Positions 1 to 19,316 of a DNA stretch of 21,427 bases are shown here, piece after piece. The stretch comes from a virus. The DNA lies in the IMG/VR virus record IMGVR_UViG_3300029263_000263, positions 1-21,427 of that record; one strand, given 5' to 3'. The notes under the pieces were generated by a model. It was not told the DNA's origin and ran no database searches. It worked only from the letters and a program-made list of their open reading frames with translations. The position numbers and the translations under genes were made by a program. How positions within the stretch are numbered: position 1 is the stretch's first letter; every line of letters begins with the position of its first letter.

Positions 1-221
1 TAAGCAGTGTCTTTAAACATGTTAAAAAACTCTGTATCATTTTGTTGGTTGTTTTGATTGAATCTATTTAATTGATTGCCATCAGGAAAATATGAACTAA
101 ACATTTCATCTTGTACTTGTTGAGCTATACTGTTAAACTCAACAGGAGTTACATAGCCTCTTTGCTCTTTGTTTAATATGAACAAGACTGTTGTGTATAC
201 TGTGTTTATATTTACCGCCAT
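1..221 (-). CDS. Probable virion connector protein, N-terminal part (runs off the window)
   Basis: The ATG is at 219-221 and the reading frame stays open for 73 codons to the window edge, so the C-terminus is missing. The protein begins MAVNINTVYTTVLFILNKEQ and continues with an Asn/Gln-rich, Phe-rich stretch. It lies directly downstream of the portal, scaffold, capsid and 271-residue genes. Proteins with this N-terminus recur, from memory, in uncultured marine phages just after the capsid gene, where head-tail connector or adaptor genes usually sit. The connector role is inferred from position; no domain is recognised. The leader on the coding strand is A-rich (AAAATAAAAATAA before the ATG) with no Shine-Dalgarno sequence. 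Confidence 0.75.
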   Translation of the reverse strand, partial: MAVNINTVYTTVLFILNKEQRGYVTPVEFNSIAQQVQDEMFSSYFPDGNQLNRFNQNNQQNDTEFFNMFKDTA

Positions 222-237
222 TTATTTTTATTTTATT

Positions 238-276
238 ATACTATAAAGGCGACGTTAAGCCGCCTTATAATAGTAT
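238..276 (-). other. Intergenic stem-loop
   Basis: An imperfect inverted repeat lies between the 271-residue gene and the next gene. The inner stem is AAGGCG/CGCCTT around a 9-base loop at 252-260. An outer AT-rich stem (ATACTA with TAGTAT) continues it after small bulges. On the coding strand it is followed by an A-rich tract, not a U-run, so it does not look like an intrinsic terminator. It could be an RNA processing or stability element. Confidence 0.45.
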
Positions 277-285
277 CACTTGTTT

Positions 286-1101
286 TTATAGTTTTTTATC
301 TATAGACTTATAGATTTCTACACCTTCGTCAGTCTTTAAAAAAGCCGCAAATGCAGAATAAGGATTTTCATCAAACGGTACGTTCATTAGTTTTCTACCA
401 TTTGAACCCCATGTGAATGATCTTTGATCAGCAGATAAATTTATTATACCTATTTCAACTGCTCTAATAGCCATGTTTCTAAGTTGAACATTATCATCAT
501 TAGCTAAGTTAATAAATAACTCTGGATTATTTCTAGCAAACAATAACAAATCTCTTTTAAGTTCTTTAGAACTCATTTCATTTACTCTTGATCCTAGTTC
601 TACTCTTAGTATTGCCTCAGCTTGATCAACGTCCATGTTTCTAGCAGCGTTTAAAGCATCTATTTGCATGTCTAGTACGTCAAGTTCATCTTCAGCCTCA
701 TTAACTGCGCTAAACTCTAAATATAGTTTATTTTTTAAAGGATGGTATAAAGATAATAATCTTTGTAAATTTTGTTTATCTTTTGGCACCGTTAATGTTC
801 CATTACGAAACTGAATATGTCCCATTGTTGCTTCACCTTTTTGCTCTTCTACAAATGGTGAATCCATATTTGTCGCATATCTTAATTCTTTTTGTTTCCC
901 TGATTCAGGGTCAAAATAAAGTAAAGCGTGTTTTCTTGTGTGTCTACAAGGTATTGTCATTGTTAAAGGTGATTTATTGCCTTTTAAATAATACACTCTA
1001 TCTTTTATTTCCCAACTAGGTTTAGCTGGTTTTGGTGCTACTTTTGTAGCTACCGGTTGAGGTGCAACCTCAATAGTTTCTGCTTTAGCTTGTTTAGCCA
1101 T
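286..1101 (-). CDS. Probable virion-associated protein downstream of capsid (271 aa)
   Basis: This is an intact 271-codon gene starting with an Ala/Lys/Pro-rich tail (residues 1-30), then a mixed beta region (about 31-110) and a predominantly helical, acidic second half (about 130-230). It sits right after the major capsid gene, where decoration, vertex or head-tail joining proteins are often found. I do not recognise a named family. Residues 42-46 read NKSPL and 80-83 read DSPF. These echo the Ser-Pro-hydrophobic motif of the small-protein cluster at 15960-18616, though two short matches could be chance. The start at 1099-1101 is preceded by an AT leader nearly identical to that of the 403-residue gene at 2713-3924. 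Confidence 0.8.
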   Translation of the reverse strand: MAKQAKAETIEVAPQPVATKVAPKPAKPSWEIKDRVYYLKGNKSPLTMTIPCRHTRKHALLYFDPESGKQKELRYATNMDSPFVEEQKGEATMGHIQFRNGTLTVPKDKQNLQRLLSLYHPLKNKLYLEFSAVNEAEDELDVLDMQIDALNAARNMDVDQAEAILRVELGSRVNEMSSKELKRDLLLFARNNPELFINLANDDNVQLRNMAIRAVEIGIINLSADQRSFTWGSNGRKLMNVPFDENPYSAFAAFLKTDEGVEIYKSIDKKL

Positions 1102-1137
1102 AATATAATATAATTAAATAGTTTGTAAAAGTAATAA

Positions 1138-1164
1138 TTACCCCCGTTAATTCAACGAGGGTAA
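1138..1164 (-). terminator. Stem-loop after the capsid gene, possible weak terminator
   Basis: The two arms (1138-1148 and 1154-1164) pair over 11 bases with one mismatch around a 5-base loop. On the coding strand the 3' arm is followed by a moderately T-rich run (AATTATTACTTTT). It lies 24 bases past the TAA at 1188-1190, not past the earlier TGA at 1371-1373, which fits the capsid gene extending to 1188. It may end or protect the capsid transcript. Confidence 0.55.
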
Positions 1165-1187
1165 CAATTACATTAATTTTGAATCAA

Positions 1188-2696
1188 TTAGATTCCTTTG
1201 AATAATACAAAGTTGTTAGCAGCTTGAGTCACTAAACATCTTTCAGATAGGAAGTTAACTTCCATTGCATCTAAAGTAGATGTGTAAGCTCCGCCAGCAG
1301 AACCAGTTAACCAAGACTTCATTCTTCTATCATCACCTTGTGAAGCTCTATATCTTACGTGTAAGAAAGGTCATCTGATGTTAGTTCCTAAAACTTGATC
1401 GTAAACTGTTGAAGTTCCAGCAGGTACTAATACACCTTCAATTGAATTGATACCTGTAATTCCACCTCTTGTAGAAGCATCGTTTAAGTATTTCCAATCT
1501 GTTTTGTAAAAGTCATAAGAACCTCTTCTAAATCCAGAGAATCCTAAGTTAAGTGCCATTTCTTCAGAGTTTTCGAATAAACCGAAAGCTGTTCCACCTT
1601 GAACACCACTAGAAATTGCAGCTAACATATCGTCAAAATCAAGAGATGTTTGTCTCTGTAAGAATAACATGTTTTCTTCAATTGCTCCTTGAGTATCTAA
1701 GTTTCTAAGAATTGCGTCAAATTCAGTAAGTCCGTTAGCAGCAGTAAATCCTACTTCTACGTTACCTCTTGAAGTTATAGCAGCGAATAAACCTTCAGTT
1801 CCTGGTACTGTATTAACACCAGCAGCTTGAGTTTGATTAAATTCACCTTCTATCATTGCCATTTCTAAGTAATCTTCGAAACGTAGTCTTGTTTCAGACT
1901 CAGCTTTTAAATACCATAAGTATCCAGATGTTCCATCTTCAGTAGCAACTTCAACCCAACCGATTTGCGCCATATCAGATCCAGATATTACATACTGGTC
2001 TCTAATAATGATTGGTGAGTTAGAAAATTGAGTTAACTGAGGAGTTACAGATACTCTAGTGTTAGCAACTTGAGCACCAACTCCAGCAGCAACGCCACCT
2101 AAGTTTGTACCTTTAGCGTAAGACGAACCGTATACAAATACTTTAAGTCCAGCTATAGCACCTACAGCAACTGCTCCTGCAGTACCTGAAAACGCAGCAG
2201 CTCCAATAAGACCTACATTATTAAAAGGTTGTACAGTGAAAGTACCACCGTTTCCAGGCGCACCACCAGCAGCAACAGTTGTACTAGCCGTTACAAGAGC
2301 TTTTACTTCTGCTCCATTTACTGGATTTAAAAGCACTACTGTATCGTTGATAGAAACTGTGTTTCTTACTGTATTAGGTAAGGTAATAAGGTTAGGTCCT
2401 GTTGCAGCACCATTTGCTCCTATACCGTATCCAGTGTAAGATATGTGTAATCTATTTTGTTCAGACCAAATTACTTGATCAGAAGACATTGGCATTTCAG
2501 CGCCAACCATTCTTAAGAATCCAGATAGAGTACGGTTTCCGTATCTTTCTACTTCTTGTTCGTAAATTTCAGGTAAAAATTGCTGAGCAAAATCATTTGT
2601 TCCAGCAGCACCTGTGTTAAATTGTAGGTAATTACTTGGCAATAATTGTTGTGTTGCCGAAGGAATTAAACTACCAAATTGAGGAGTTAAAGCCAT
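1188..2696 (-). CDS. Major capsid protein with an in-frame TGA codon
   Basis: From the ATG at 2694-2696 the frame runs 441 codons to a TGA at 1371-1373. It then continues in the same frame for 60 further sense codons to TAA at 1188-1190. The extension contains PFLHVRYRASQGDDRR, MKSWLTGSAGGAYTS and LSERCLVTQAANNFVLF, which read like a normal conserved capsid C-terminus rather than random sequence. With the TGA decoded the product is 502 residues. The N-terminal part (FLPEIYEQEVERYGNRT and onward) and the location after portal and scaffold genes fit an HK97-fold major capsid protein. The capsid role is inferred from order, size and remembered marine phage homologues. The TGA may be a real nonsense variant, a leaky stop (its 3' base is C) or a sequencing/assembly error. 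The last of these, or a rare allele, is the simplest reading. Confidence 0.85.
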
Positions 2697-2716
2697 TTTG
2701 TTTGTTTTTTAATTAG
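2697..2716 (-). promoter_or_regulatory. A-rich translation leader of the capsid gene
   Basis: On the coding strand the bases before the ATG are TAATTAAAAAACAAACAAA. There is no Shine-Dalgarno sequence. Very similar leaders precede the tail fibre gene and the 96-residue gene, so this is probably a translation enhancer of the Bacteroidota type. Function is inferred from recurrence and position only. Confidence 0.5.
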
Positions 2717-3924
2717 TTAAATTTTCTTTTTTTTATTTTTAATTTTGATGAATCAAATCCACTAACCGATTTTACTTTAAAACCACCTACAGTAATTTCA
2801 GCAGAACTTCCTGTTCTAGCTTTACTATCGGTTAAATTTTTAGAACTACTAATAACGTCTTTGACGGCATCAGCCTTTCCTTGTTCGTAAAAGTGACTAG
2901 CAATTTTATCAACATTGTCAGCAGCGTACATGGCTTTATGATAACCAGAAGTATCCACTACATCTCCATCTTCGTTTAAGAACTTCTTAACTAAATTATT
3001 GATGTTTGATTGATTTTCTGCTACTTTCTCACGATTCTGTATATTGTACTTATAGTTCTTTTCACCAACTTTAATATCAAAACCTTTGAATTCATCGTTG
3101 AATAGTTCCTTAGTATTTTTTTTGAAATTTTCGTGTTTTTCAGTAGCCACATCTTGTTGCTTATTGTAGCGATTAAAAAAGTCTGTAGCTTTTTGTTGGT
3201 CTTGAGTTACTCCGGGTCTCAACTTGATCTCCTCGTAATATTTATCTTTCAAGTCTTCCAAATAGTCTTTAGCTTTTGCAATCTCTTCTTTTTTAGCGAG
3301 CTTCTTTTTACGGACGTCACGCTCCTCGTCCAAGTCTTCATCATAAGAGAAACTATCCTCCATGACAAACCCTATTTCTTCCTCGTTTAAATGAGGTTTT
3401 GCTTTTTTATAATATTCTTTTAACAGAGTATCTTGATCTATACTAGAATAATCTGCATTTAATCTCGTGTAGTCTTCAATTGTACCACCAGTTTCTTTCA
3501 TAAAGTCAACTAGTTTTTCGATGTTTTCTGGTAATGCTTTACCTAGTATTTTTTCATCTCTAATAGCTTCTTTAACTTCTTTAGTAACTTGCTCTGTTAC
3601 TTCTTGGATTGCTTTAAACTCTTCAACATTTTTGATGGGCTCTTGTATTTGTTCGTCCATCTTAACGCTATCTCCGGTTTGTTTGTCCACATCCACTTTT
3701 TCTGTTTCTCCGATTTGAATGGCATCTGATTCTTGTGTTTTAAAAGATTCACTAGGAATCGTGACTTTAGTAATTGGATTAGGTATGTCTACTAAAGGTT
3801 CTTTAATGTTTACCTTTATTACCTCTTGATCGTTTTTTACTAATTGCTTAGGTGTTCGTTTTTTAGACTTTATTTTAAAGTCTCCCTCCTGTTTAACAGG
3901 TTCATTTGTTTTTGTTTCTGACAT
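2713..3924 (-). CDS. Probable capsid scaffolding protein (403 aa)
   Basis: This highly charged Lys/Glu/Asp-rich protein lies between the portal and major capsid genes, the standard place for a scaffold. Residues 1-110 look disordered (KIKSKKRTPKQLVKN, then many Glu/Val/Thr). A helical, coiled-coil-like core lies around 165-235 and includes the acidic patch SFSYDEDLDEERD followed by basic RKKKLAKKEE. The C-terminal 30 residues are basic (SSKLKIKKRKFN), as expected for a scaffold tail that contacts capsid protein. No protease signature is seen, so a fused protease-scaffold is unlikely. The assignment rests on composition, position and remembered marine phage analogues. Confidence 0.7.
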   Translation of the reverse strand: MSETKTNEPVKQEGDFKIKSKKRTPKQLVKNDQEVIKVNIKEPLVDIPNPITKVTIPSESFKTQESDAIQIGETEKVDVDKQTGDSVKMDEQIQEPIKNVEEFKAIQEVTEQVTKEVKEAIRDEKILGKALPENIEKLVDFMKETGGTIEDYTRLNADYSSIDQDTLLKEYYKKAKPHLNEEEIGFVMEDSFSYDEDLDEERDVRKKKLAKKEEIAKAKDYLEDLKDKYYEEIKLRPGVTQDQQKATDFFNRYNKQQDVATEKHENFKKNTKELFNDEFKGFDIKVGEKNYKYNIQNREKVAENQSNINNLVKKFLNEDGDVVDTSGYHKAMYAADNVDKIASHFYEQGKADAVKDVISSSKNLTDSKARTGSSAEITVGGFKVKSVSGFDSSKLKIKKRKFN

Positions 3925-3951
3925 AATATAATATAATTAAATAATTAAAAT

Positions 3952-6348
3952 TTAAACTTGCGGTGCCATTTGGCCCGGTTGTTCTTTGCTTTGCTCTTCA
4001 AAATCAATAGGTAATAAATTATTTTTTCTTTGATCTATCATTTGACTTTGCTGAGAACCTTCCATTTGGATACGAGTATCTTTACGGTTTTCAATTTCTT
4101 GTTCTTTTGCTTTTGTAGCTTCCATATCCATTTGCTTTAACTGCATATCAAACTGGAACTGAGCTTGCATTTTTTGTTGCTCTAATTGAGCAGCTGTTTG
4201 CATACGTTGTATTTCCATTTGGGATCTTGCTTGTTCGTATTGAACTTTAGATCCAGATATAGCTTCTTGTTTTTGTACTTCAGACATTGCTATTTTCTCA
4301 GACGCGTCAGCCTGTGATTCCGCTTGAGCTCTAATATTAGCTTGTTGGTTTTTTTGATCGAGCTTATCTTTAGCTTTACGTTTTATCTTAAGCATTTGAT
4401 TAGCTAATTTAAGATTTTTAATTTGTCTTAAATCTATAGCATCTTCTAAATCAATGCCACCACTTTGTAAAGCTACTTGAATGTTTTGCTCTAATTGTTG
4501 TTGCTCTTCTTCGTCTGGCTCTAATTCTAAAAATATACCAAAGTCATGTAAGTTTAAATTTACAATCTCTTTTAAAGTTTTTACATTATAAGTAGATACA
4601 GAATTAACTAAAGCGTTTTCAGTTAATGGAAATTCTAAAGCGTCAGCAATTTTGAGTGCAATATTTTCCGCTATTCTAAGAGTTAAAAACAAACTAGCTT
4701 GCTTGATATGTCTAGTTGCTACATTGGAAGCGTTAGCAGCCATCTTTTGTAGTCCTACTAGTGTTTGTTTGTCTGGTGTACTTCCGTCACGAGCCTCATT
4801 AAGTCCGGTTACGTCTCTTATCATTTGTAGATAATATTGATAAGTTTGTATAAGAGCTTGTATTTTGCCTTGACCACTAGAACTATTAAGTTCTTGTATT
4901 GGAACTTTACCAGCGTTCATTTCACCGTCTTGAGTAAGTGATCTACCAACTATAGAACCAGTTTGAAAATACATATTTAATGCTTCTGCTGGATTATAAT
5001 TTGTACCATTACCTAAATCAACTTCGGCTAAACCATCCATGTCTAAGTAAACACCATCTGGCACCATTCTAGACATTACTTGTTGTAGCTTTAAATGAGT
5101 CAATTGAATCATGTCGGCAAAACCTATGCATTTGCTTACAAGAGATTCTATTCTACCTTTATACATTCTTGGCGCACAAATAGCATAATTCATTTCTACC
5201 TTAGTTGTATCAGCTAAAGGTCTTGACATGTTCTCCGCTAGTTTCCATTGTAAGATTGTATCAGTACCTAGAACCTTAGCACCATTATATAATACTTCTA
5301 TTGATCTTGATACTCTTTCAAAACTTTCGTTTTCTGGTGGATTAAATGTGTCTGGCTTTTCTAAAGCTTTCATTAATCCTTGGTCAGTATATTTTATTTT
5401 AAATACTTGATTATGATAAGTCTTGTAATCAAAATACATAACTTGAACAGTGTTGTTATCATAATTTCCATAACCAGTCGTATATGAACTATTACCTGGC
5501 ATTTTTTGTATTCTTTCTAATTCTTCATCAGTAGTATCAGGAAATTCTTTTTTAAGTTCTGCTATAGTTATTGACTTAACTTCACCAACATAGTATATAT
5601 CTTCAAAATTTGGATCTTCTGTATAAGAATAAACCATGTAAGCTGGATCAACGTATTTAACTGTAACGCCTTCGGCTGTATTAAAATCAGTTTTAGCAGC
5701 AGATATACCACAAACAGTTAAGTCCATGTTAAGTCTTCTTCTTATTAAATCATATTTGTTTTGAGCAAGCACTGATGATATAGCTTCTTCTTCTGCTATT
5801 TCAATTGATTGCTTGTAACTTAATTGCATATGAAGCTCTAATTCGTCTTCTGATTCCGGCAAAGTACTAGGATCAGGACTTTGATATAGATCAATACCTA
5901 AAGTTTGTTTTAACTCTTTTAAGTAATCACTACCCATCATGTCTTCATATATCTTAGAAGCGTAATCAGTTCTTTTCTTTACAGAACTAGGATCTTGAGC
6001 ATAAGCTTTTATATCATAGCTTTTTGATGATATACCATTTACAACTATATCTACAAACTTAGATAAAATAGGAACTGGCTGCCAGTCTAAATTAAGATAA
6101 GACAAATCACCATTAATAGATAATTCATCTTTGTATTTTTGTGGAGATTGTTCTCCACGAGCATATAATCTTAGCTCATGAAAACTATTCCAATTAGTTA
6201 AATACCTATTACCGTTAGTTCTATTTTGACCAAACCACTCGTATTCAATTGCCATAGCAACTTGACTTCCATATTCTAAGCTTGCTTTTTCTGCATCGCT
6301 AACCACTTGACTAGGAAAGGCGCTATTGGTGTTAGTATATATATTCAT
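3952..6348 (-). CDS. Portal protein (798 aa)
   Basis: This gene directly follows the large terminase: the terminase TAA (6349-6351) abuts this ATG, suggesting coupled translation. The length of 798 residues is typical of large portal proteins of short-tailed and crAss-like phages. The N-terminal half is mixed alpha/beta with many Tyr/Trp residues. The middle holds a long region with ARDGSTPDKQTLVGLQKMA and RHIKQASLFLTLRIAENIA, resembling the helical stem and crown region of portals. Residues about 647-775 form a long Gln/Met/Ala-rich coiled coil (for example AQLEQQKMQAQFQFDMQLKQ), a barrel-type C-terminal extension. The twelve-subunit portal is the DNA gate at the capsid vertex. Identification is by order, length and architecture; no single diagnostic residue was used. 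Confidence 0.85.
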   Translation of the reverse strand: MNIYTNTNSAFPSQVVSDAEKASLEYGSQVAMAIEYEWFGQNRTNGNRYLTNWNSFHELRLYARGEQSPQKYKDELSINGDLSYLNLDWQPVPILSKFVDIVVNGISSKSYDIKAYAQDPSSVKKRTDYASKIYEDMMGSDYLKELKQTLGIDLYQSPDPSTLPESEDELELHMQLSYKQSIEIAEEEAISSVLAQNKYDLIRRRLNMDLTVCGISAAKTDFNTAEGVTVKYVDPAYMVYSYTEDPNFEDIYYVGEVKSITIAELKKEFPDTTDEELERIQKMPGNSSYTTGYGNYDNNTVQVMYFDYKTYHNQVFKIKYTDQGLMKALEKPDTFNPPENESFERVSRSIEVLYNGAKVLGTDTILQWKLAENMSRPLADTTKVEMNYAICAPRMYKGRIESLVSKCIGFADMIQLTHLKLQQVMSRMVPDGVYLDMDGLAEVDLGNGTNYNPAEALNMYFQTGSIVGRSLTQDGEMNAGKVPIQELNSSSGQGKIQALIQTYQYYLQMIRDVTGLNEARDGSTPDKQTLVGLQKMAANASNVATRHIKQASLFLTLRIAENIALKIADALEFPLTENALVNSVSTYNVKTLKEIVNLNLHDFGIFLELEPDEEEQQQLEQNIQVALQSGGIDLEDAIDLRQIKNLKLANQMLKIKRKAKDKLDQKNQQANIRAQAESQADASEKIAMSEVQKQEAISGSKVQYEQARSQMEIQRMQTAAQLEQQKMQAQFQFDMQLKQMDMEATKAKEQEIENRKDTRIQMEGSQQSQMIDQRKNNLLPIDFEEQSKEQPGQMAPQV

Positions 6349-8559
6349 TTAACTTATTATTTTTGATGTGGTTCCTTTATTGTTGTATCTTTTAATTCCT
6401 AAATCTACAGGTTCTAATTTAATTTTATTGCTTGGAGCATATCTATGCTTGTTGCAAGCCATTAAAGCTAGTCCTGAGCTAATAGAAGCATCGTGAGAAG
6501 TTCTATTATTAATATTAAATCTAGCCCAATCTTCTAAGGTTCTTTGAAAATATACATCTCCGTAACCTGTTTCTTTTAATCCTACAAAATGCTCTATATA
6601 AGACTCTATAGCCGCAGCGTGTGATTGTTTAATGTCTTCACTTGAATTAGGTATTCCACCTATTTCTTTTTCTGTTACAGATAATTTATTATATTTTTTA
6701 TCAGGTCTATTCATAGAATATGATCTATAACCTCTACGCCTAAAGTAGTATAATAATCTAGGTTTATTATTCTCTGCTAATATTGGCATGCCATAAAATA
6801 CACAAGCCATTAATACATCTTCAAAAAATATCTCAGCAGTTTGTGGACGAGCAATATATTCTAAAAAGAAATGATTTGGAGGCACGTCTTCCATGCTGAA
6901 TTTAGTTAGACCATGTAAAGATCCATTGGAACCTTTGCCGTCTACTGTTCCTGATATATCATATGGATCACATCCAAAAGCTCCACAGTGTTCATTGCCT
7001 GGATATTTCTTATGATTTCTTGTTATTGTTCTGTTTTGTAACTGAACCGGTGGAACCCATGAAACTAAAAATCTACCGTTTTTGTTTGGTACAAATATAA
7101 CTTTAGTATCTTGTTCTCCGTTTTCCCATTGAAAACTGCCTTGTGTTATTGGTAATGTGTTTTTTAAGTCTTCATTAAAATCTACCTGTTGGTATATTTT
7201 AGTTAAATTAAATAAAGACTCTTTAGACTCGTCTCTAAAAGCGTGCTTAGTGGTACGTGGAAACTGTCTATAAAATTCATTTAATCCATCTTGGTCATCT
7301 TTAAGACCTTCTACCTCATTATCCCAGTATTCAATAACCCCGATTTTGATTGGCGTTCCATGAGGTCCATACACTTGTTTTGATGGAGTTTCGAAGACAG
7401 GATAACCATAAGAATCAATGTATCCTTCGTAGTTCCATTCCATAGGAATGAACAAAGAATAGAGTCCTGAACGAGTTTGTCCATTGGCATTTCTTTTAAT
7501 AACATTTGAGTCATCATATAATTTTTTAAAATTTCTACCACCTTTATCTAAAGCGTTTGATGTTGATCCCATCATGCATTTACCAATAATTCTTGATCCT
7601 AATCTAAGCGTTGTTTTAGTAACACGCCAATTATTAAGAATATTATTTGGTCTTTCCCATTTGCCTGATTCATCATGAACTAGTAGTTTTAATTTTTCAC
7701 CATCATATGCATTGTCTCCAGTATTCTTCCAATCAATAGTAGTATCAAGACCAGCAAGATCTTCTGGCTTTTCAATTGAAGTAATACTTCTTCTAGTAAA
7801 TTTACTAGCTGGTACTCTATAAGCTAATTCGGTTTTAGGTCGATCCATACCATCCTGTATGGGTTTAAAAAAGAAAGGATAATTAACTGATATTGGTACT
7901 ACTTTGTCAGTAAACATTTTTTTAGCATCAGCACCAGATTTAGATAAAATTCCAAAACGTGCATCACTAGATATTGTCGCCATGTTAACTGTTTCTCCTG
8001 AAGCCATAAATGAAAAACCAGAACGTCTATTCTTTAAATAACACATGCCATAACATCTATCATCTGCTCTGCATGCTTCCCAGAATATAAAAAACAATCT
8101 ATTTGATTCTCTAAAATCTGGTTGACCTACATCAATTTTAGACCATTGTAAATACATGTAATGAGTACCTGTTATATAAGTAGCTATTCCTTTATTGTAA
8201 AACCAAAAACCCTCCTCGCGATACTTAAATTCTTTATCTATATAGTCGTACCATTTTTCTTTAAAGTCTTCTGGATACTCTCTCCAGTCAAACACAGTCT
8301 TTATTTTTTTTAATATCTTAGGATATTCAGTTTTAGCCCATTTATCTTTATCAAAAGTATGTGTATTATTTTCTTTAGGTAAAGCTATTTTAAGATTTTG
8401 TATCTCATATATTTCACCTATTTCTCCTGTCTTTGATATAATAATTATATCATGTTCTTCATTGTATCCGTAATCCCATTTTTTATACCTATTCATTCGT
8501 TTAAGAATTTTAGGCTTAATGTGATCTTTTAATACTTTGTATAAAGTTTGCTCGTACAT
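6349..8559 (-). CDS. terL: Large terminase subunit (ATPase-nuclease)
   Basis: This is the 736-residue DNA-packaging motor protein. A Walker A-like segment lies at 176-186 (KNRRSGFSFMA), Walker B at 291-297 (KLLVHDE) and a coupling-type motif at 331-341 (GSTSNALDKGG). The RNase H-like nuclease half shows FGCDPYD (Asp531), PILAENNK (Glu596) and SHDASISSGLAL (Asp690), the expected acidic triad. The Walker A-like segment has Phe where P-loops carry the catalytic lysine, so another basic residue nearby (Lys176, Arg178 or Arg179) may serve. The ATG (8557-8559) overlaps the stop of the 91-residue gene as TAATG. The portal gene follows immediately. Length and order fit terminases of Bacteroidota and marine phages. 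Confidence 0.92.
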   Translation of the reverse strand: MYEQTLYKVLKDHIKPKILKRMNRYKKWDYGYNEEHDIIIISKTGEIGEIYEIQNLKIALPKENNTHTFDKDKWAKTEYPKILKKIKTVFDWREYPEDFKEKWYDYIDKEFKYREEGFWFYNKGIATYITGTHYMYLQWSKIDVGQPDFRESNRLFFIFWEACRADDRCYGMCYLKNRRSGFSFMASGETVNMATISSDARFGILSKSGADAKKMFTDKVVPISVNYPFFFKPIQDGMDRPKTELAYRVPASKFTRRSITSIEKPEDLAGLDTTIDWKNTGDNAYDGEKLKLLVHDESGKWERPNNILNNWRVTKTTLRLGSRIIGKCMMGSTSNALDKGGRNFKKLYDDSNVIKRNANGQTRSGLYSLFIPMEWNYEGYIDSYGYPVFETPSKQVYGPHGTPIKIGVIEYWDNEVEGLKDDQDGLNEFYRQFPRTTKHAFRDESKESLFNLTKIYQQVDFNEDLKNTLPITQGSFQWENGEQDTKVIFVPNKNGRFLVSWVPPVQLQNRTITRNHKKYPGNEHCGAFGCDPYDISGTVDGKGSNGSLHGLTKFSMEDVPPNHFFLEYIARPQTAEIFFEDVLMACVFYGMPILAENNKPRLLYYFRRRGYRSYSMNRPDKKYNKLSVTEKEIGGIPNSSEDIKQSHAAAIESYIEHFVGLKETGYGDVYFQRTLEDWARFNINNRTSHDASISSGLALMACNKHRYAPSNKIKLEPVDLGIKRYNNKGTTSKIIS

Positions 8560-8834
8560 TATTTAGATCTTCCTTCAGCAAAACCACGAAACGTAATTTC
8601 TTTTTTAACTTCTTTAGGTTTTTCTTCTAACATGCTTTGTTCTTCTGTAATACGATTGTGTATTTCAAAAGCGTCAAATATGCATAGTTTTTTTGTAGCC
8701 GCAGCGTTTTTAAGTCTGTCAGCTGATATATCTTCGCTTGAATCTATAATAGCTTCTTTAGCAACTTTAATTAGTTCCTCTACCGCTATGTGCCCAGCTT
8801 GGATTATATTCAACTTCGTTTCCTTCGTGTTCAT
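8559..8834 (-). CDS. Small protein upstream of terL, candidate small terminase subunit (91 aa)
   Basis: This helical, charged protein ends FRGFAEGRSK and its TAA overlaps the terL ATG. Residues 15-60 (HIAVEELIKVAKEAI, LKNAAATKKLCIFDAFEI) look like paired helices. The position immediately before terL is where small terminase subunits are usually encoded. The size is small for one, and I see no clear helix-turn-helix, so the role is inferred. Its ATG at 8834 lies 68 bases inside the 3' end of the preceding 205-residue gene in another frame. A TTG at codon 8 is an alternative start that would still overlap. Confidence 0.7.
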   Translation of the reverse strand: MNTKETKLNIIQAGHIAVEELIKVAKEAIIDSSEDISADRLKNAAATKKLCIFDAFEIHNRITEEQSMLEEKPKEVKKEITFRGFAEGRSK

Positions 8835-9384
8835 ACTTTATAACAATATCATTAGATTTCATACAATAAAGACGTTGATCGTCTATTACAAACTCCCATT
8901 CACCGTACGGTTTAAAACCTACAAGATCTCCAGGACTTATTTTAAGCGCTTCTAATGAGCTATTACCTATTTTTAATATACCAATAAGCTTTTGCTCTTT
9001 GTCAAGCGTTAGAGAATTATTATTTTTAAGTGGCGTTACAAAACATCTGTCTCCAAATGATATCCACTCTGTGTTTCTTTTATATAAATAAACTTGATCC
9101 ATTTGACAAAAATATAAATTATCTTTGAAAAAAGATCTACTTTTCTTTCTATTACCTTTCATGTCATAAAATGTTCTAAACACGTTATGATGTATAAGTA
9201 TTACATCTCCTTTTTTAATAGGAGTTTTATAAGCTTTAGGTATATCAACAACAATAGCCAGGTTATTAACTGATTTATAACTTTCTATTTTAGTATTAAG
9301 AACTAAAGATTTTTCACCTATTTTAACTTCGTTATCATACTCATCACCTAGTGGTTGTATGATAAAGTCAAACATACCTCTCAT
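8767..9384 (-). CDS. Tandem GroES-like (co-chaperonin-like) protein (205 aa)
   Basis: Two GroES-type segments can be seen. The first covers about residues 6-70: FIIQPLGDEYDNEV, then LAIVVDIP and IKKGDVILIHH. The second covers about 112-183: GDRCFVTPL, IGILKIG, ISPGDLVGFKPYGEWEFVID and LYCMKSNDIVIKY. Each matches the GroES order of N-terminal strand, G-x-V-x-x-hydrophobic-G, GD-x-V-x-F turn and a final D-I-hydrophobic strand. GroES proper is about 95 residues, so 205 fits a duplication. T4 gp31 shows that phage co-chaperonins can serve capsid folding, and this gene sits in the packaging/head operon. The function is inferred from sequence pattern. Mobile-loop sequence is not obvious, so a structural use of the fold is also possible. 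Confidence 0.6.
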   Translation of the reverse strand: MRGMFDFIIQPLGDEYDNEVKIGEKSLVLNTKIESYKSVNNLAIVVDIPKAYKTPIKKGDVILIHHNVFRTFYDMKGNRKKSRSFFKDNLYFCQMDQVYLYKRNTEWISFGDRCFVTPLKNNNSLTLDKEQKLIGILKIGNSSLEALKISPGDLVGFKPYGEWEFVIDDQRLYCMKSNDIVIKYEHEGNEVEYNPSWAHSGRGTN

Positions 9385-9611
9385 TAATATTCTAAATCAT
9401 ATTCAACAGATATAGCCATGTTAGAATTAAATTTTTTCCATGGCAATACCTCGTTGTTTTTTTTAATGAATATATTATAAGAACTGTCAGAATCTTCTCT
9501 TAAAATATGAGATATTTCATGTCCACCATAGACTTGTTGCCCTATAGAGTAATGCATAGCATCAGACTTATAGTCAGCGCCAATACTTATTTTTCTTATA
9601 ATAGAAGTCAT
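9384..9611 (-). CDS. Conserved small phage protein of unknown function (75 aa)
   Basis: This intact small gene is linked to both neighbours by TAATG overlaps (9384 and 9611). It begins MTSIIRKISIGADYKSDAMH and includes a glycine turn (QQVYGGHEISHI) and a C-terminal strand (NMAISVEYDLEY). It looks like a compact, mostly beta protein. Similar small proteins recur in uncultured marine phage genomes near terminase genes, from memory. No function is known to me. Translational coupling places it in one operon with the GroES-like protein and terminase. Confidence 0.75.
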   Translation of the reverse strand: MTSIIRKISIGADYKSDAMHYSIGQQVYGGHEISHILREDSDSSYNIFIKKNNEVLPWKKFNSNMAISVEYDLEY

Positions 9612-9865
9612 TAGTCTTCTTTTTTGTCTTCGTCTTCTATAACTTCATAAGAACCATCTTTTAAGTCGATGCTTATTTTACCGTATTCTTTTTCAAGCTC
9701 TGCTTTAAATTCTTCAATTTTTTTGCCTTGATCTATAGCCATATCAGTTAATTGAGACTTTTGAGCTGTCAAAACACCTATGTTAGTTAGTGTTGAATTT
9801 AATTCTTTTTGAGAATCTAAAATTGTTTTTAATTGTTCTTCTGTAATTTTTTGATCTTTATTCAT
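9611..9865 (-). CDS. Small coiled-coil protein (84 aa)
   Basis: Residues 1-60 are a heptad-like helical region with many Gln/Lys/Glu (TEEQLKTILDSQKEL, IGVLTAQKSQLTDMAI). It is followed by ELEKEYGKISIDLKDGSYEV, a short beta segment, and an acidic tail. The helix-helix-strand layout resembles small oligomerising phage proteins. No function is recognised. Its TAA overlaps the ATG of the 75-residue gene. It follows the fibre gene after a short AT-rich gap (9866-9921) where I see no clear promoter or terminator. Confidence 0.75.
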   Translation of the reverse strand: MNKDQKITEEQLKTILDSQKELNSTLTNIGVLTAQKSQLTDMAIDQGKKIEEFKAELEKEYGKISIDLKDGSYEVIEDEDKKED

Positions 9866-9921
9866 TTTATTTGATTTAATTGTTATTACTTACTAATATA
9901 GTTACTTGTTTTTTTTATTAT

Positions 9922-12900
9922 TTAAGCGTTTTCTAATGCTGTTACTTTTGCTGATAGTTCTTGAATAGCTTTTACTAACACAGGAATTAATCTTCCATAA
10001 CTAGCTTGTAGTTTTTCAGGGTTTGATGAATTTACTAATCTTAAAAAATCATCATCCACAGTTGCCAGTTCTTGCGCTATAAATCCAACGTCTTTAATAC
10101 CCGCTGTCGAAGGTATTACAGTATGGGCAATTTTGATTATTTCTTCAGTATCTCTAGGTAAAGGAGATCCTAAATCCGTCGGTGTATCTGTAGGTGCTGG
10201 AGTAACTTTTTCTTCTCGAGTATATACAACTTCCTCTCTTGGGTCCCAAACAAATTTTCTAGGCTTTAAACTATTTATTAAATCTAATCCAGAGTCTAAA
10301 TCTACTATCTCAGATTTATCTCTTTCGTCAGATAAAGCTGTAATAGTTTGAACTTGACACCTTAAAGTAGCAATACTACTATTTCCTAAAACAATTTCAT
10401 TAGTAGTGTTTGCAGTTGTAAATTGCGCACCATTTCCTAGTGCTGTATTGTTATTACCTGTTGATGCCGCGTTATCTGCAGGACCTGAGTTATGTCCAAT
10501 AAATGTATTGAAATCGCCTGAAACATGCTCTACTCCTGCTAAAGCACCGAAAAAAGAATTGTAATTAGCAGCTACACTAGTGCTCGCGTCTTGACCACTA
10601 GAATATCCTACAGCTACATTATTGTTCCCATTAACAGTGTTACCCATTGATCTATATCCAACATGAACATTAAATTTTGAGTCAGCACTTGAATTTCCGG
10701 AATCTTTACCTACTTCTCTTCCTATATATACCCCGTTTTGAATACTTCCTCCAATACCATTTTCAAAAGCTTCAGCTCCAATGATTACCGTTGAAGATGC
10801 AGAATTGCTTCCAACATCACCACCACCATTAAACATATCACTTCCTATCCATACTGCATCTTGAATATTTTTTCCAGCGGTTGCATTTAGAAATTGATTT
10901 CCCATGCCTATAAATACGTCTCTCGCATGTAGTGTACTAGAGTTAGTAAAAACGTCTTGAGCAAAATTATCACCAATAGCTATTACATTTACATACTTGC
11001 TTGGACTACTTCCTGATAAGTTTACCGCAGTATGTGAAGATGTAATATCCCATACTATCATCTTATTAATGTCTTGTGAACCCATTCCGTCTACACTTCC
11101 CATTGTTCCTATTGGAAAACCTGTTTTCCACCACCCACTAAAACTAAAATCAGGGTAATTAGGAAACAAAAATTCATTAGTGTAACCACGAGTTATAACT
11201 GAGTTAGTTCCAAGTCCAGCCGCTATGTTTGAATTAGATCCACCGCCAATCGTGGTTGCATTTGTCCATCTAGGTGATTGCGCCGCTACAGGAGTATAAG
11301 TAGAATCAATTCCTGCCCCAGCTGCAGCAGTTGCCCATACTGGAGTTGCGTTTCCAGCAGAAGTTAAAACTTGTCCAGATGTTCCATAAGCTGTTCCTGT
11401 AGAACCAAAAGATATTCCTCCAGCTGAAGTAATACGCATTCTTTCTGTTATATTATCTCCTGGGTTTGTTTTAAAGGTCATGTCACCTGTTAAAGCGTTA
11501 CCTGTTCCATCACTAGTAATTAAGCCGCTAATTTCACCAACTACATCAGTTGAAGCAAGAGCATCACCAACAACAAAAGTAAGACAAGCTTTGTTATTTA
11601 ATGCTTCAGCAACTTTTATAGCAGTAAAAGAATATGTTTGACCGCTATTCTCAAATATTGCTGTATTTAAAGCATCTGTTGTGTCCACTTGAAACAAAGC
11701 ATCAGGGCTAGTCGTTCCGACTCCAAACCTTCCATTAGACATCATACGCATTTTATCTACAGTACCTGCTTGAAAATGAATTTCCCCTGTATTTCTACCA
11801 TTAAGTGTTAAACTATTTGTAAGGTTGTCAATAACGTCAGTTATCCTTAAGTTTCCATTTGCCTCAATACGCATTTTTTCGGCATTGTTTACTATAAATG
11901 AAACTTCTCCTTCTATACCTGAAGCAGTCTCCGTTCCTTGCACTGTTCCAATTCTTGCTACTTTAGATGCGGTTATTAAATCCATAAACACTCTTTGCGT
12001 TCCAGTGTTAAAGCTAGCTGACTGTGCAGTTGAATTTATTGAGCCACCAATTACTAGTTTTTCGGTAGGATTAGTAAAATTTATACCGACGTTTCCGGCG
12101 GAATCAATACGCATTTTTTCAGTTGGTGAAGCATCATTCGATGTAGCAAAGGTTAATTCTCCCCTATTACTTGATCCTACTTTTTCACCTGCTATATACG
12201 CTAATATGTCATCTGTCTGTGAGTTTGCAGCTGCAGTGTTAGCAAAATTAATTTTACCAAACGGTAAATCATCAGAAGCTAATATTCCAGCTAATCTCAT
12301 CTCACCAGCAACGTCTGAAGTTGTTGATACAATATCTAATTTTTTAACAGGAGTAATCGTTCCGATCCCAACGTTGCCGTTATAAGTTCCTGCGGTACCT
12401 ACATACATTTTAGACCCGAATGCATCATCAAAAATTATTAAACCTTCGCCAGCTCCTGCCAGCACTGCTTTACCAGCTCCGCCTCCAGTCCTTTCAAGTG
12501 TTAATTGAGCGCTTCCGCCATTCAAAGATACATGAAGCTTAGTATCTGGGTTAGTTGTTCCAATGCCAACGTTTCCTCCAGATGTAACTGTTAATCTTGT
12601 TGACTGTGTGGAAGTTCCGCTTGCTGTTCTTAATTTTATATCACCTCCGTTGCCAGCAAAAATATTTGTAGAGAATGGGCCGCTATCATAGTTAAGCATA
12701 TTAAACCCGTAGTAATCAACTCCATTTGTTTGTAAATGAAATGCTTTTCCTGTGCTGCTTCCAAAATCTAATCTTACAGCAGGCGAAGTCGTTCCGATAC
12801 CAACGTCGCCGTTTGATTGCATAGTCATCACGGTAGTCTCAGGTAAAGCTGTGTTGGTCCCAGCTAAGTCTTTTAATTTAAAGTCTAATCTTGATTTTGG

Positions 12901-13797
12901 ATTAGAACCATTACCTGTTGAATATCTACCTAATGCTAAACTTGCCCCTCCTGACCAAACACTAGGAGAACCATATCTATATAAAGTAAATAAATCCTCA
13001 ACACTTGCTGCATCTCCCGTTAAAGGCATTTCGCTACCTTCTACGTAAAGTTTAGTTTCTGAAACTAGTGGTGTATGATTAATTAAAACATTACCCTCTT
13101 GCGTAATACGCATTTTTTCAGACTTAGTGTTATTGTTTTCAGTTACAAAAGCTAAATCTGTACTCGCGTTAGCGACTCCTATGCTAACTATTCTTGAACT
13201 ACCTCTATTACTTCCTTTATTATGGAAAACAATTTGAGAAAAAGTATCTGCTGTTTGATTGTCATTAGATACTAATATAGTAGCTGTACTAGACTCTTGA
13301 CCAGTATCACTTGTTGCGTCGTATACAGTATCGTTATCTTTAGAAACTTCAAAAAGAGCCGTAGGACCAGTCGTTCCAATACCTAAATTGCCTGGATTTG
13401 TAAAATAAATATTAGTACTACCACCGTCTAAAGTTAAATACGTAGCTAATCCACCAGAGCCATTATCATTTTGAAATATTACATCTTTGTCAGCTGCTCT
13501 TTGTTGTATTGATAAATCTCCTGCGTAATTTTGAATAAAACTTGTTCCCGGTACACCTGACGTATGTTGTATTCTTAAATCATCACCTGTGCCAAATTTA
13601 ACTACTACATCATCGTTTAAATCAATATCGCCAGTCATAGTTCCACCAGCTAGTGGTAAAAAAACACCAGTACCTCCTGAGGTAACAAAATTAGCTGGTG
13701 TTATACGAACGTTTTGTGTACCATTATACCCTACAATTTCTTGTATTCCTGATATATTTGTTACTTCTGTAAATCCTGAGAATTTAATATTTGCCAT
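9922..13797 (-). CDS. Tail fibre or spike with C-terminal S74 intramolecular chaperone (1291 aa)
   Basis: The N-terminus (MANIKFSGFTEVTNISGIQE) probably anchors to the tail. A long shaft follows, built of repeats pairing EKMRI-type strands (for example SEKMRITQEGNVLI) with VGIGTTSP-type turns; about six of the latter are visible. Near the C-terminus there is a stretch rich in NNNVAVG, FNTFIGHNSG and NNNTALGNGAQ, resembling trimeric left-handed beta-roll repeats. The last 136 residues are an S74/endosialidase-type chaperone. They start at SDERDKSE (Ser1156 and Lys1161 as the expected autocleavage dyad), then GFIAQEL and YGRLIPVLVKAIQEL. This domain trimerises the fibre and is normally released by self-cleavage before Ser1156. 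The protein is a likely receptor-binding component, which makes it a candidate host-range determinant. Confidence 0.9.
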   Translation of the reverse strand: MANIKFSGFTEVTNISGIQEIVGYNGTQNVRITPANFVTSGGTGVFLPLAGGTMTGDIDLNDDVVVKFGTGDDLRIQHTSGVPGTSFIQNYAGDLSIQQRAADKDVIFQNDNGSGGLATYLTLDGGSTNIYFTNPGNLGIGTTGPTALFEVSKDNDTVYDATSDTGQESSTATILVSNDNQTADTFSQIVFHNKGSNRGSSRIVSIGVANASTDLAFVTENNNTKSEKMRITQEGNVLINHTPLVSETKLYVEGSEMPLTGDAASVEDLFTLYRYGSPSVWSGGASLALGRYSTGNGSNPKSRLDFKLKDLAGTNTALPETTVMTMQSNGDVGIGTTSPAVRLDFGSSTGKAFHLQTNGVDYYGFNMLNYDSGPFSTNIFAGNGGDIKLRTASGTSTQSTRLTVTSGGNVGIGTTNPDTKLHVSLNGGSAQLTLERTGGGAGKAVLAGAGEGLIIFDDAFGSKMYVGTAGTYNGNVGIGTITPVKKLDIVSTTSDVAGEMRLAGILASDDLPFGKINFANTAAANSQTDDILAYIAGEKVGSSNRGELTFATSNDASPTEKMRIDSAGNVGINFTNPTEKLVIGGSINSTAQSASFNTGTQRVFMDLITASKVARIGTVQGTETASGIEGEVSFIVNNAEKMRIEANGNLRITDVIDNLTNSLTLNGRNTGEIHFQAGTVDKMRMMSNGRFGVGTTSPDALFQVDTTDALNTAIFENSGQTYSFTAIKVAEALNNKACLTFVVGDALASTDVVGEISGLITSDGTGNALTGDMTFKTNPGDNITERMRITSAGGISFGSTGTAYGTSGQVLTSAGNATPVWATAAAGAGIDSTYTPVAAQSPRWTNATTIGGGSNSNIAAGLGTNSVITRGYTNEFLFPNYPDFSFSGWWKTGFPIGTMGSVDGMGSQDINKMIVWDITSSHTAVNLSGSSPSKYVNVIAIGDNFAQDVFTNSSTLHARDVFIGMGNQFLNATAGKNIQDAVWIGSDMFNGGGDVGSNSASSTVIIGAEAFENGIGGSIQNGVYIGREVGKDSGNSSADSKFNVHVGYRSMGNTVNGNNNVAVGYSSGQDASTSVAANYNSFFGALAGVEHVSGDFNTFIGHNSGPADNAASTGNNNTALGNGAQFTTANTTNEIVLGNSSIATLRCQVQTITALSDERDKSEIVDLDSGLDLINSLKPRKFVWDPREEVVYTREEKVTPAPTDTPTDLGSPLPRDTEEIIKIAHTVIPSTAGIKDVGFIAQELATVDDDFLRLVNSSNPEKLQASYGRLIPVLVKAIQELSAKVTALENA

Positions 13798-15466: not shown

Positions 15467-15892
15467 TTACGGTGTGAATATAGCCGATACAAATGTGCTT
15501 CTAACAGCTGGTGCTGTTACAACTATATTACCTTGTGGTCCTCTACCGTTTGAAGTTCCACCGCCTTGAGCTAATGGTGCTTGAGCAGTTGTTAAAGGTG
15601 GTACTACCGTAGATACTACTCCTCCTGGATTAGCTGTTAAAGCTGCACTGAATGAAGCTAGCATATCAGCTTGTCTTGTAGCTACAGTAGCAGGTGCTAC
15701 TATAGGTGCTGATACGACAACAGTATATAAAGAAGTCGCGCTAGTGTCAGTCGTAATTACTAATGTTGTAATTGCAGCTGCTGCGGCTCCAGTGTTTGTT
15801 GCTACCATTCCGCCAATGTGCGAAATTGGAATTAATGTTTCTCCAACGACTCCTGCCGCTGATGTTGTTGGTACTTTTAAAAATTGTGCCAT
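15467..15892 (-). CDS. Ala/Thr/Val-rich virion-like protein (141 aa)
   Basis: The gene starts at 15890-15892 (MAQFLKVPTTSAAGVVGETL) and ends VRSTFVSAIFTP. It is almost free of charged residues and is rich in Ala, Thr, Val and Gly, the composition of a beta-structured, secreted or virion surface protein. There is a Gly/Gln-rich linker around 109-121 (QGGGTSNGRGPQG). No family is recognised. A tandem hexamer repeat sits immediately upstream of its start. Its place among small virion-like genes suggests a minor capsid or tail component, but this is inference. Confidence 0.7.
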   Translation of the reverse strand: MAQFLKVPTTSAAGVVGETLIPISHIGGMVATNTGAAAAAITTLVITTDTSATSLYTVVVSAPIVAPATVATRQADMLASFSAALTANPGGVVSTVVPPLTTAQAPLAQGGGTSNGRGPQGNIVVTAPAVRSTFVSAIFTP

Positions 15893-15897
15893 TTTTT

Positions 15898-15930
15898 GTT
15901 AGTGTTAGTGTTAGTGTTAGTGTTAGTGTT
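15898..15930 (-). repeat. Tandem hexamer repeat, 5.5 copies, in the 5' leader
   Basis: Five perfect copies of GTTAGT (plus-strand sense; CACTAA-type on the coding strand) and half of a sixth fill the leader of the 141-residue gene, ending 5 bases before its start codon. The array is unlike the surrounding AT-rich sequence. It could vary in copy number by slippage and change leader length, or supply an unstructured C/A-rich initiation region. Confidence 0.9.
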
Positions 15931-15959: not shown

Positions 15960-16379
15960 TTACATATAGTCTTTTTTAGATTTTGAATCATCGCCTTTTT
16001 TACCGCCATACATTTTAGCAGGAGATTCATAATCTTTTTTTGATTTGCTGTCGTCTCCTTTTTTGCCGCCATACATCATAGCTGGAGATTCTGGTGCAGC
16101 TTCAATTTTAGACTTTAAAGCCTCTGGTAAATTTGCTTGTTTTCCAACTAATTCTTTTTCCATTGGAGAGTCTTTCATCATAGCTGGTGATTTGTCATAC
16201 ATCTTAGCTGGTGATCCACCAATTCTAGATTGTGAATGTTTAGACATCCAAGATCCACCGCTAGCTCTAGAAGCTATAGGATTATCATTCATTAGGTTTT
16301 TTCTTTCTTGTTTTGGTGATTCCATTTTCATAGGAGCGTTACCTTTAGTAGCTCTCATGTCTTGTTTGTAGTTTGGCAT
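15960..16379 (-). CDS. SP-motif small protein with C-terminal tandem duplication (139 aa)
   Basis: I choose the ATG at 16377-16379 (MPNYKQDMRATKGN), because the longer start at 16436 overlaps the preceding gene by 26 bases. The protein is Lys/Ser/Met-rich and looks disordered. Six Ser-Pro motifs occur: ESPKQE (20-25), GSPAKM (55-60), KSPAMM (63-68), DSPMEK (70-75), ESPAMM (97-102) and ESPAKM (118-123). Residues 97-117 and 118-138 are near-perfect 21-residue copies. No enzymatic domain is visible. It is the strongest member of the SP-motif cluster at 15960-18616. Function unknown; a virion-associated or assembly-tag role is speculation. Confidence 0.75.
   Translation of the reverse strand: MPNYKQDMRATKGNAPMKMESPKQERKNLMNDNPIASRASGGSWMSKHSQSRIGGSPAKMYDKSPAMMKDSPMEKELVGKQANLPEALKSKIEAAPESPAMMYGGKKGDDSKSKKDYESPAKMYGGKKGDDSKSKKDYM
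15966..16091 (-). repeat. In-frame 63-base tandem duplication, two copies
   Basis: Copy 1 is 16029-16091 and copy 2 is 15966-16028, both coding for the 21-residue SP unit. Comparing codons, eight differ silently (Asp, Ser, Ser, Asp, Asp, Gly, Gly, Pro) and only one changes an amino acid (Met to Lys at unit position 5). The duplication is therefore old enough to diverge at silent sites while the peptide was kept. Confidence 0.9.
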
Positions 16380-16410
16380 AGTGTTTATTTTTTGAATTTT
16401 ATATTGTTTC

Positions 16411-16962
16411 TTAGTTTGGTAAAGGTGATTTAGCAATTTTATTACCTAGCTGCTCTTTTGTTTTCTTGTATTTTTTAATTTTTCTTGTTTCTCTTTTGCT
16501 AGCAGGCTTATCTGCAGTCCTTACTTTATCTGTTGTTTTATCGTCAGGATCACCAAGATATACATCTTTTACGCTACTTCTTTTAGTTTGCATTTTAGAG
16601 ATTTGCTTAAGCGTCTTATTAGCTTTTTTAATTTTTCTTCCTGTTCCGTCATCTTTTCCAAGACCAAAATACTTTGCTTCTTGATTAAAGGGTGAAGTCA
16701 TTTTAGCAGGAGAACCGTGATTTTTCTCATCATATTTTAAATCACCCGCTAGTTTAGAGATATGTTTTTCATCACTAGTCATGCTAGAATCGCTATAACC
16801 ATGTTTGTTATCATAATCAATATCTTTTTTTAGATATTCCATATGAGCTTCGTCATCTTTTTTTGTAGCTTTATAATTTCCTTCTGTGACTTTTGTATCT
16901 GCGTGATCTTTTGACCACTTAGCGTTACCGCTATATTCTCCGTAATGTCCTTTGTGTCCCAT
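16411..16962 (-). CDS. SP-motif basic protein (183 aa)
   Basis: The protein starts MGHKGHYGEYSGNAKWSKDH, is strongly charged and probably partly disordered. The first half has a helical segment (KKDDEAHMEYLKKDIDYDN, then SDEKHISKLAGDLKYDEK). Residues 83-91 hold GSPAKMTSP, with PFNQEAKYFGLG following, and the C-terminus is AKSPLPN, giving three Ser-Pro-hydrophobic motifs. The second half is very basic (KIKKANKTLKQISKMQTKRS, KRETRKIKKYKKTKEQ). Similar proteins beginning GHKGHYGE appear, from memory, in uncultured marine phages. Function unknown; the basic half could bind DNA or acidic capsid surfaces. Confidence 0.75.
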   Translation of the reverse strand: MGHKGHYGEYSGNAKWSKDHADTKVTEGNYKATKKDDEAHMEYLKKDIDYDNKHGYSDSSMTSDEKHISKLAGDLKYDEKNHGSPAKMTSPFNQEAKYFGLGKDDGTGRKIKKANKTLKQISKMQTKRSSVKDVYLGDPDDKTTDKVRTADKPASKRETRKIKKYKKTKEQLGNKIAKSPLPN

Positions 16963-18259: not shown

Positions 18260-18616
18260 TTATTTTCTTCTTGCTATTCTTTTCATCATGTTTAGTCCAG
18301 AACTTCCCGCTGTGACATATGAGTCTTCTTGTAATTCTTGAACAGCTCCAGGAACTGATCCCATATCTTGGTCAGCCATGCTAGGAGTTTCTATACCTTG
18401 AGCATCAGCAGCGTTATCTAATACTGGATTATCTAGTCCTTCTTCAACAGGAACAGCTTCTTGTGCAGAACTAGAAGCAAGGTCTATTTTTTCTTCAATA
18501 CTACCTAGTCTTTTGTTTATTTTTTTAAGAGTTTTTGAAGTTTTCTTTCTACCTCTTTGACCTATTAAAGCTCCAGCTATAGCACCTCCTAAAAAATTTA
18601 TTGGACTTTTACTCAT
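18260..18616 (-). CDS. SP-motif protein with Gly-zipper segment (118 aa)
   Basis: It begins MSKSPINFLGGAIAGALIGQ, so the SP motif at residues 4-6 runs directly into a Gly-spaced hydrophobic stretch (about 7-19), followed by basic RGRKKTSKTLKKINKRLG. This could be a short membrane-inserting or helix-packing segment, too short and weak for a confident transmembrane call. The second half is acidic and Gln/Ala-rich (SAQEAVPVEEGLDNPVLDNA) and looks disordered. The ATG overlaps the preceding TGA as ATGA. Function unknown. Confidence 0.75.
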   Translation of the reverse strand: MSKSPINFLGGAIAGALIGQRGRKKTSKTLKKINKRLGSIEEKIDLASSSAQEAVPVEEGLDNPVLDNAADAQGIETPSMADQDMGSVPGAVQELQEDSYVTAGSSGLNMMKRIARRK

Positions 18617-19059
18617 CTTTGTTTGTCTTTATTTACATTATATATAGCTTGTGTCATTACTTTGTCTGTGTATGTTTCACCAGCTATTAGTTTATTTCTT
18701 CTATTACTTGTTGGTATATCATCTTTACCTAACATGATTCGATACACTCTACTTATAAGTTGCTTACACTTAAATGAAACTTTATATATATTATACTTTT
18801 GTGTGGTTCTATTTCTGTTTCGCCACACGACTATCCAGTCGTTTTTAAGTAATTTGTTCCAGCGTCTATTATCCCAACTATAAGAATATGTACCTTTTTC
18901 AAAATCATGCTTAGTAAAAAGATCAATGCAATCTAAGTATATTAATAACTCTAAATCTGCATCGTTTAAATTGTTGTTTTTACAAGCCCATTTACGAATT
19001 ATTCGATAATGTTTTAATAAGTTTAGATTTTTTAAGTCTAAAGCTTCTAGCTTTTTCAT
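18613..19059 (-). CDS. Possible winged-helix protein (148 aa)
   Basis: Residues about 34-50 (LNDADLELLIYLDCIDLFTK) form a helix pair, followed by KLLKNDWIVVWRNRNRTTQKYNIYKVS. That second segment reads as a recognition helix and wing, as in MarR- or PadR-like winged helices. The C-terminal part is basic and helical. The protein is joined to GroES by an ATGA overlap and to the next gene by another, so it belongs to one operon. A DNA-binding regulator of late genes is plausible, but the fold call is made by eye and it could be another small structural protein. Confidence 0.55.
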   Translation of the reverse strand: MKKLEALDLKNLNLLKHYRIIRKWACKNNNLNDADLELLIYLDCIDLFTKHDFEKGTYSYSWDNRRWNKLLKNDWIVVWRNRNRTTQKYNIYKVSFKCKQLISRVYRIMLGKDDIPTSNRRNKLIAGETYTDKVMTQAIYNVNKDKQR

Positions 19060-19316
19060 AAAACAACAACCACGTCTTGTAATTTAATAACGTGATATGT
19101 ATTTTCTTTTATTTCTATTTTGTGGCCAGCGTGTCTATCAAAGAATATTTCGTCATCTTTTTTTAAACTTGGCACTTCTTCACCTACTGATATAATACTA
19201 GCTTTAGTATATCTTATATCTTCTCTTTGATTTTCAGCAAGAAGTAAACCACCTTTTGTTTTAGTAGTACCTTCTTTTGTTTTTTGAATTATTAAATTTC
19301 TACCTATTGCTTTCAT
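19056..19316 (-). CDS. groES: Phage GroES co-chaperonin (86 aa)
   Basis: The order of GroES features is present: an N-terminal strand (RNLIIQK), the mobile-loop region with KGGLLL, a central SIISVGEEVPSLKKDDEIFF segment, and a last strand IKLQDVVVVL. The dome-like part is short; the usual GroES length is about 95. It forms the heptameric lid on GroEL. Its ATG lies 17 bases inside the groEL 3' end in another frame, giving the unusual order groEL then groES. The KDDEIFF stretch replaces the usual GD-x-V-x-F. The TGA stop overlaps the next ATG. Confidence 0.88.
   Translation of the reverse strand: MKAIGRNLIIQKTKEGTTKTKGGLLLAENQREDIRYTKASIISVGEEVPSLKKDDEIFFDRHAGHKIEIKENTYHVIKLQDVVVVL

Follow-up and report, generated by a model that had tools for sequence, protein, structure and literature searches.

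The window, by which we mean the whole 21,427-nucleotide stretch of viral DNA that was analysed, carries a major capsid protein gene on its minus strand. Translation of 1188-2696 begins with an ATG at 2696 and proceeds through 441 sense codons to an in-frame TGA. The frame then continues in phase for another 60 sense codons and closes at a TAA, which reproduces the reading given in the preliminary description of this DNA. The locus comprises the following features:

1188..2696, minus strand: gene for the major capsid (virion structural) protein; with codon 442 counted as sense, 502 codons followed by TAA
1371..1373, minus strand (read 1373-1371): codon 442, an in-frame TGA; a nonsense substitution private to this contig, at a site where relatives have Arg; AGA in a conspecific contig
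1191..1370, minus strand: 60-codon C-terminal capsid segment, conserved, in frame and not decayed, as judged by conservation and codon differences
1188..1190, minus strand: TAA, the true terminal stop of the capsid gene; 127 of 146 readable homologues have TAA here, 19 have TAG and 0 have TGA
1137..1165, minus strand: intrinsic-terminator-like hairpin past the TAA, 13 pairs with a U-rich tail, z = -5.5

A PHROGs profile search assigns the protein to PHROG 13704, a head and packaging family, with an E value of 6e-81. The full-length match scores 273 bits and aligns residues 33-500 with positions 33-446 of the 452-position profile. The gene lies after terL, portal and a hypothetical protein of ~400 residues, and the order terL-portal-hypothetical-capsid recurs in Maribacter phage Panino, the Flavobacterium elemo phages, and Cellulophaga phages phi38:1 and Calle. 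The Calle_1 counterpart is annotated as 'structural protein /major capsid protein (VirFam)'. Panino, the elemo phages (Elemovirus), phi38:1 and Calle (Callevirus, Pervagoviridae) all have the same capsid family over its full length, at 35-47% identity to the window protein. In each of them the capsid gene is a single uninterrupted frame, whereas the window alone has TGA at codon 442. The source of the window is a flavobacterial podovirus-type phage, represented by a marine contig. A profile search of solved structures with the capsid protein gave no match. The AlphaFold model of the full-length protein is of poor confidence (mean pLDDT 48) and was therefore not used for placing the tail within a fold.

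Several other features of the window and of related contigs were recorded. A 1291-residue tail spike/fibre protein (9922-13797) carries a C-terminal Peptidase_S74 (endosialidase chaperone) domain. GroES-like (Cpn10, E 1e-13) and GroEL-like (Cpn60, E 2e-55) genes lie next to one another at 19056-20850 with a 17-base overlap; a complete chaperonin pair is uncommon in a phage. A hexamer tandem repeat of 5.7 perfect copies (15897-15930) is found just upstream of the ATG of gene 15467-15892 and may be a regulatory or phase-variable tract. In gene 15960-16436, a 63-base tandem duplication (15966-16091) with SPAKMYGGKKGDDSKSKKDY-type repeats lies in the C-terminal coding part. A 205-residue gene with a variable C-terminus overlaps the next gene at 8767-8834, and the window has AGA where the conspecific contig L332 and about a dozen relatives have TGA; the difference reflects natural movement of the stop over a few codons. 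One contig of the family, L113 (IMGVR_UViG_3300047157_000138), has a capsid gene broken into several frames at 4862-6346 and looks like an error-rich, faulty assembly. Family contigs L303-L331 were assigned to bins named Pelagibacter, Woesearchaeota, Aenigmatarchaeota, Aliivibrio and others; this suggests that the phage contigs were mis-binned, not that these organisms are hosts.

The TGA at codon 442 is the sole internal in-frame TGA among the 28 gene-like frames of the window. All 59 of the Trp codons counted in the window are TGG. Most genes end in TAA, and TGA serves as the end of only two (18613-19059 and 19056-19316), which have backup stops (TAA/TAG) 4 and 2 codons further on. These counts agree with the preliminary description, which had singled out the lone internal TGA, the TGG usage elsewhere and the two TGA-ended genes with stops close behind. 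It had also placed a hairpin after the TAA and not after the TGA, and folding bears this out: the 122 nt of RNA 3' of the TGA are not more stable than shuffled sequences (z = +0.67) and form no stimulatory structure, in contrast to the hairpin past the TAA. No tRNA, suppressor or otherwise, was found in the 21 kb window. Where relatives cover the window, over roughly bases 1-9,900, its own frames contain no other internal stop or frameshift. A frameshift in place of a stop was rejected, since reading stays in phase beyond the TGA and no frameshift-like junctions occur in the part of the window that relatives cover. A wider collapse of the window was rejected as well; its other internal stops belong to shadow frames, on strands or in frames other than those of the real genes.

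Alignment of homologous capsid proteins at this site, a check proposed at the outset, gives a uniform picture. Codon 442 encodes Arg in 260 of 264 distinct homologues, and neither a stop nor Trp is present in any. The four exceptions have Gln, Leu, Lys and Lys and come from cultured phages that are less than 50% identical. Across 79 viral contigs that cover the site the codon is AGA, CGT, CGA or CGC, always specifying Arg, and the tail is uninterrupted as far as each contig extends. Searching all of IMG/VR for the local motif gave no contig when the motif carried TGA and at least 120 when it carried an Arg codon; such scans may omit records very near the window, but near-identical contigs were nonetheless recovered. 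The exact 34 bases flanking the variable base are common to at least 120 contigs, and in all 121 fetched loci with these flanks, representing 95 distinct contexts, the variable base is A, giving AGA. These results agree with the point change envisaged in the preliminary description, but the codon replaced was probably neither of those it named (CGA or TGG), as both the conspecific and the nearest relatives have AGA. A CGA-to-TGA transition is likewise less likely than a change from AGA, given the codon of the conspecific and of the 121 exact-context loci.

The 60 residues beyond the TGA align with the C-terminus of hundreds of homologous capsid proteins in the same alignment columns. In a 46-sequence alignment many tail columns are invariant, and mean conservation is 0.88 for the tail versus 0.70 for residues 1-441. 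Codon differences within the tail are predominantly synonymous: 16 synonymous and 2 non-synonymous against L001, and 9 and 1 against L213. Furthermore, the match to the PHROGs capsid family scores 218 bits without the tail and 273 bits with it, a gain of 55 bits. The continuation beyond the TGA is not a chance open frame. It had been reasoned that homologues ending at the TGA would place the tail outside the protein; the opposite is observed, with all of them continuing through it. Judged from these alignments, all relatives share the tail as the conserved C-terminal part of the capsid protein, and it is under purifying selection. Together with the strong terminator hairpin that follows, this indicates that it is not a read-through extension. 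The tail has not decayed, as its conservation and mostly synonymous differences attest; the stop is therefore no long-fixed feature, nor is the tail an optional addition.

The closest comparison is provided by L240 (IMGVR_UViG_3300029260_000063), which is 99.76% identical to the window over 1-7966 (7,966 bases) and hence belongs to the same phage species. At codon 442 it has AGA, so a second, independent contig of this phage disagrees with the window base. This fits a sequencing or assembly error and also a rare allele. The two contigs differ at 19 positions: 17 differences are synonymous and mostly transitions, one is an Ile/Thr difference in terL and one is the TGA/AGA difference. Against this background the nonsense transversion stands out from natural variation. 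The other conspecific contig, L332, matches the window at 99.5% identity over 1587-8807; it begins at window position 1587, short of the codon 442 site, and its differences are again mostly synonymous. Selection therefore filters the natural variation of the population, as sampled by both contigs. A transversion that creates a stop at a conserved Arg, just where one of the best-conserved regions of the protein lies downstream, does not resemble a variant that is being maintained.

Taken together, the sequence comparisons show that the change is private to the window contig and that the site is Arg in all close relatives. Its origin is probably a sequencing or assembly error consisting of a single A-to-T change. 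The major capsid protein of the phage population would then have 502 residues, the 442nd being Arg, and the first base of that codon would read T for A in one assembled contig, producing TGA. The real product would be a single full-length protein extending to the TAA, with no decoding mechanism involved. We infer an uncorrected fault in a metagenomic contig as the most likely course, in preference to a real defective genome. Loss of the conserved last 60 capsid residues is expected to be lethal, which makes the nonsense allele unlikely as the consensus of a living population. The preliminary description had listed a sequencing or assembly error, or a rare-allele point change, first among its explanations, and this is strongly supported by a TGA that is private to the window, by Arg in 260 of 264 homologues and by AGA in L240.

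The second of these origins, a real nonsense allele carried by a defective phage genome or by a minority genome that the assembler followed, is unlikely but deserves some weight. Unless intact siblings complemented it, such a genome would have only a non-functional capsid protein, cut short at 441 residues. The TGA base lies within otherwise clean sequence, and the remaining variation of the contig resembles true population polymorphism. In particular, the other 18 differences from L240 look genuine, indicating that the contig is not generally error-ridden, and Ile262 of terL, although unusual in the family, is also present in L332, so odd residues in the window contig can be real. Both points count against an error. 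An undecayed tail would also be expected from a very recent mutation. However, the capsid is essential, and a nonsense allele would be expected only at mutation frequency; this makes an error more probable than a real defective allele. Moreover, the allele is absent from L240 and from every relative.

Programmed read-through of the UGA after the model of phage Qbeta, with capsid forms of 441 and 502 residues, is very improbable. UGA followed by C is a leaky stop context, and the window TGA has it. The frame downstream is also open, conserved and under purifying selection. Against this, a stop at codon 442 occurs in none of the 264 homologues, is missing from the 99.8% identical contig, and was not recovered in the IMG/VR scan with the TGA motif. 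The tail is the normal C-terminus of every homologue and not an added domain, the RNA after the TGA forms no unusual structure (z +0.67), and the window contains no tRNA. The read-through proposed earlier is thus not supported, as relatives make the full-length protein from one uninterrupted frame, and we rejected it on the empty TGA scan, the AGA of L240 and the lack of downstream structure. The coat/A1 system of phage Qbeta, in which read-through occurs at a UGA (PMC8067240), resembles the window in having a UGA inside a capsid frame with a long in-frame continuation. In Qbeta, however, the short form is itself the working coat protein and the extension forms a domain of its own (PMC8067240), whereas the corresponding short form of the window would lack the conserved C-terminus of all homologues, and its stop is found in no relative. 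A narrower version, in which a recent, strain-specific UGA is read through with Arg or another residue to give a working capsid from a mixture of 441- and 502-residue forms, is scarcely credible. Read-through of this TGA would make it a new instance of capsid recoding in a DNA phage, but the evidence points the other way.

Reassignment of TGA to Trp or another amino acid in the window phage can be set aside almost entirely. The scarcity of TGA ends leaves it some room, with most window genes ended by TAA and a second stop within 4 codons of both TGA ends, but the site is Arg in relatives and never Trp, the 59 counted Trp codons are all TGG, and the single internal TGA falls at an Arg site with no repeats elsewhere. 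In relatives, TGA terminates the portal, terL and 205-residue genes, a few of which have no further stop over the following 20-56 codons, and the 21 kb window yielded no suppressor tRNA. An ancestral Arg and the use of TGA by relatives as a genuine stop refute the earlier suggestion of decoding as Trp; the candidate was rejected on these grounds. Stop-codon-recoded phages are known, for example crAss-like phages with code 15 (PMC9523058), and the window resembles them in having an in-frame stop codon in a structural gene. It differs from them in having one isolated site, not many, and no suppressor tRNA. Nor does its ancestral Arg correspond to any TGA reassignment that is known.

We retain the reading of one incorrect base in one contig: the TGA is almost certainly a sequencing or assembly error or a single broken gene copy, an ordinary finding and not a new decoding mechanism. 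It serves as a caution: a single-base fault in a metagenomic contig would cut the capsid annotation by 60 conserved residues, and a close sister contig together with a family alignment suffices to reveal such a fault.
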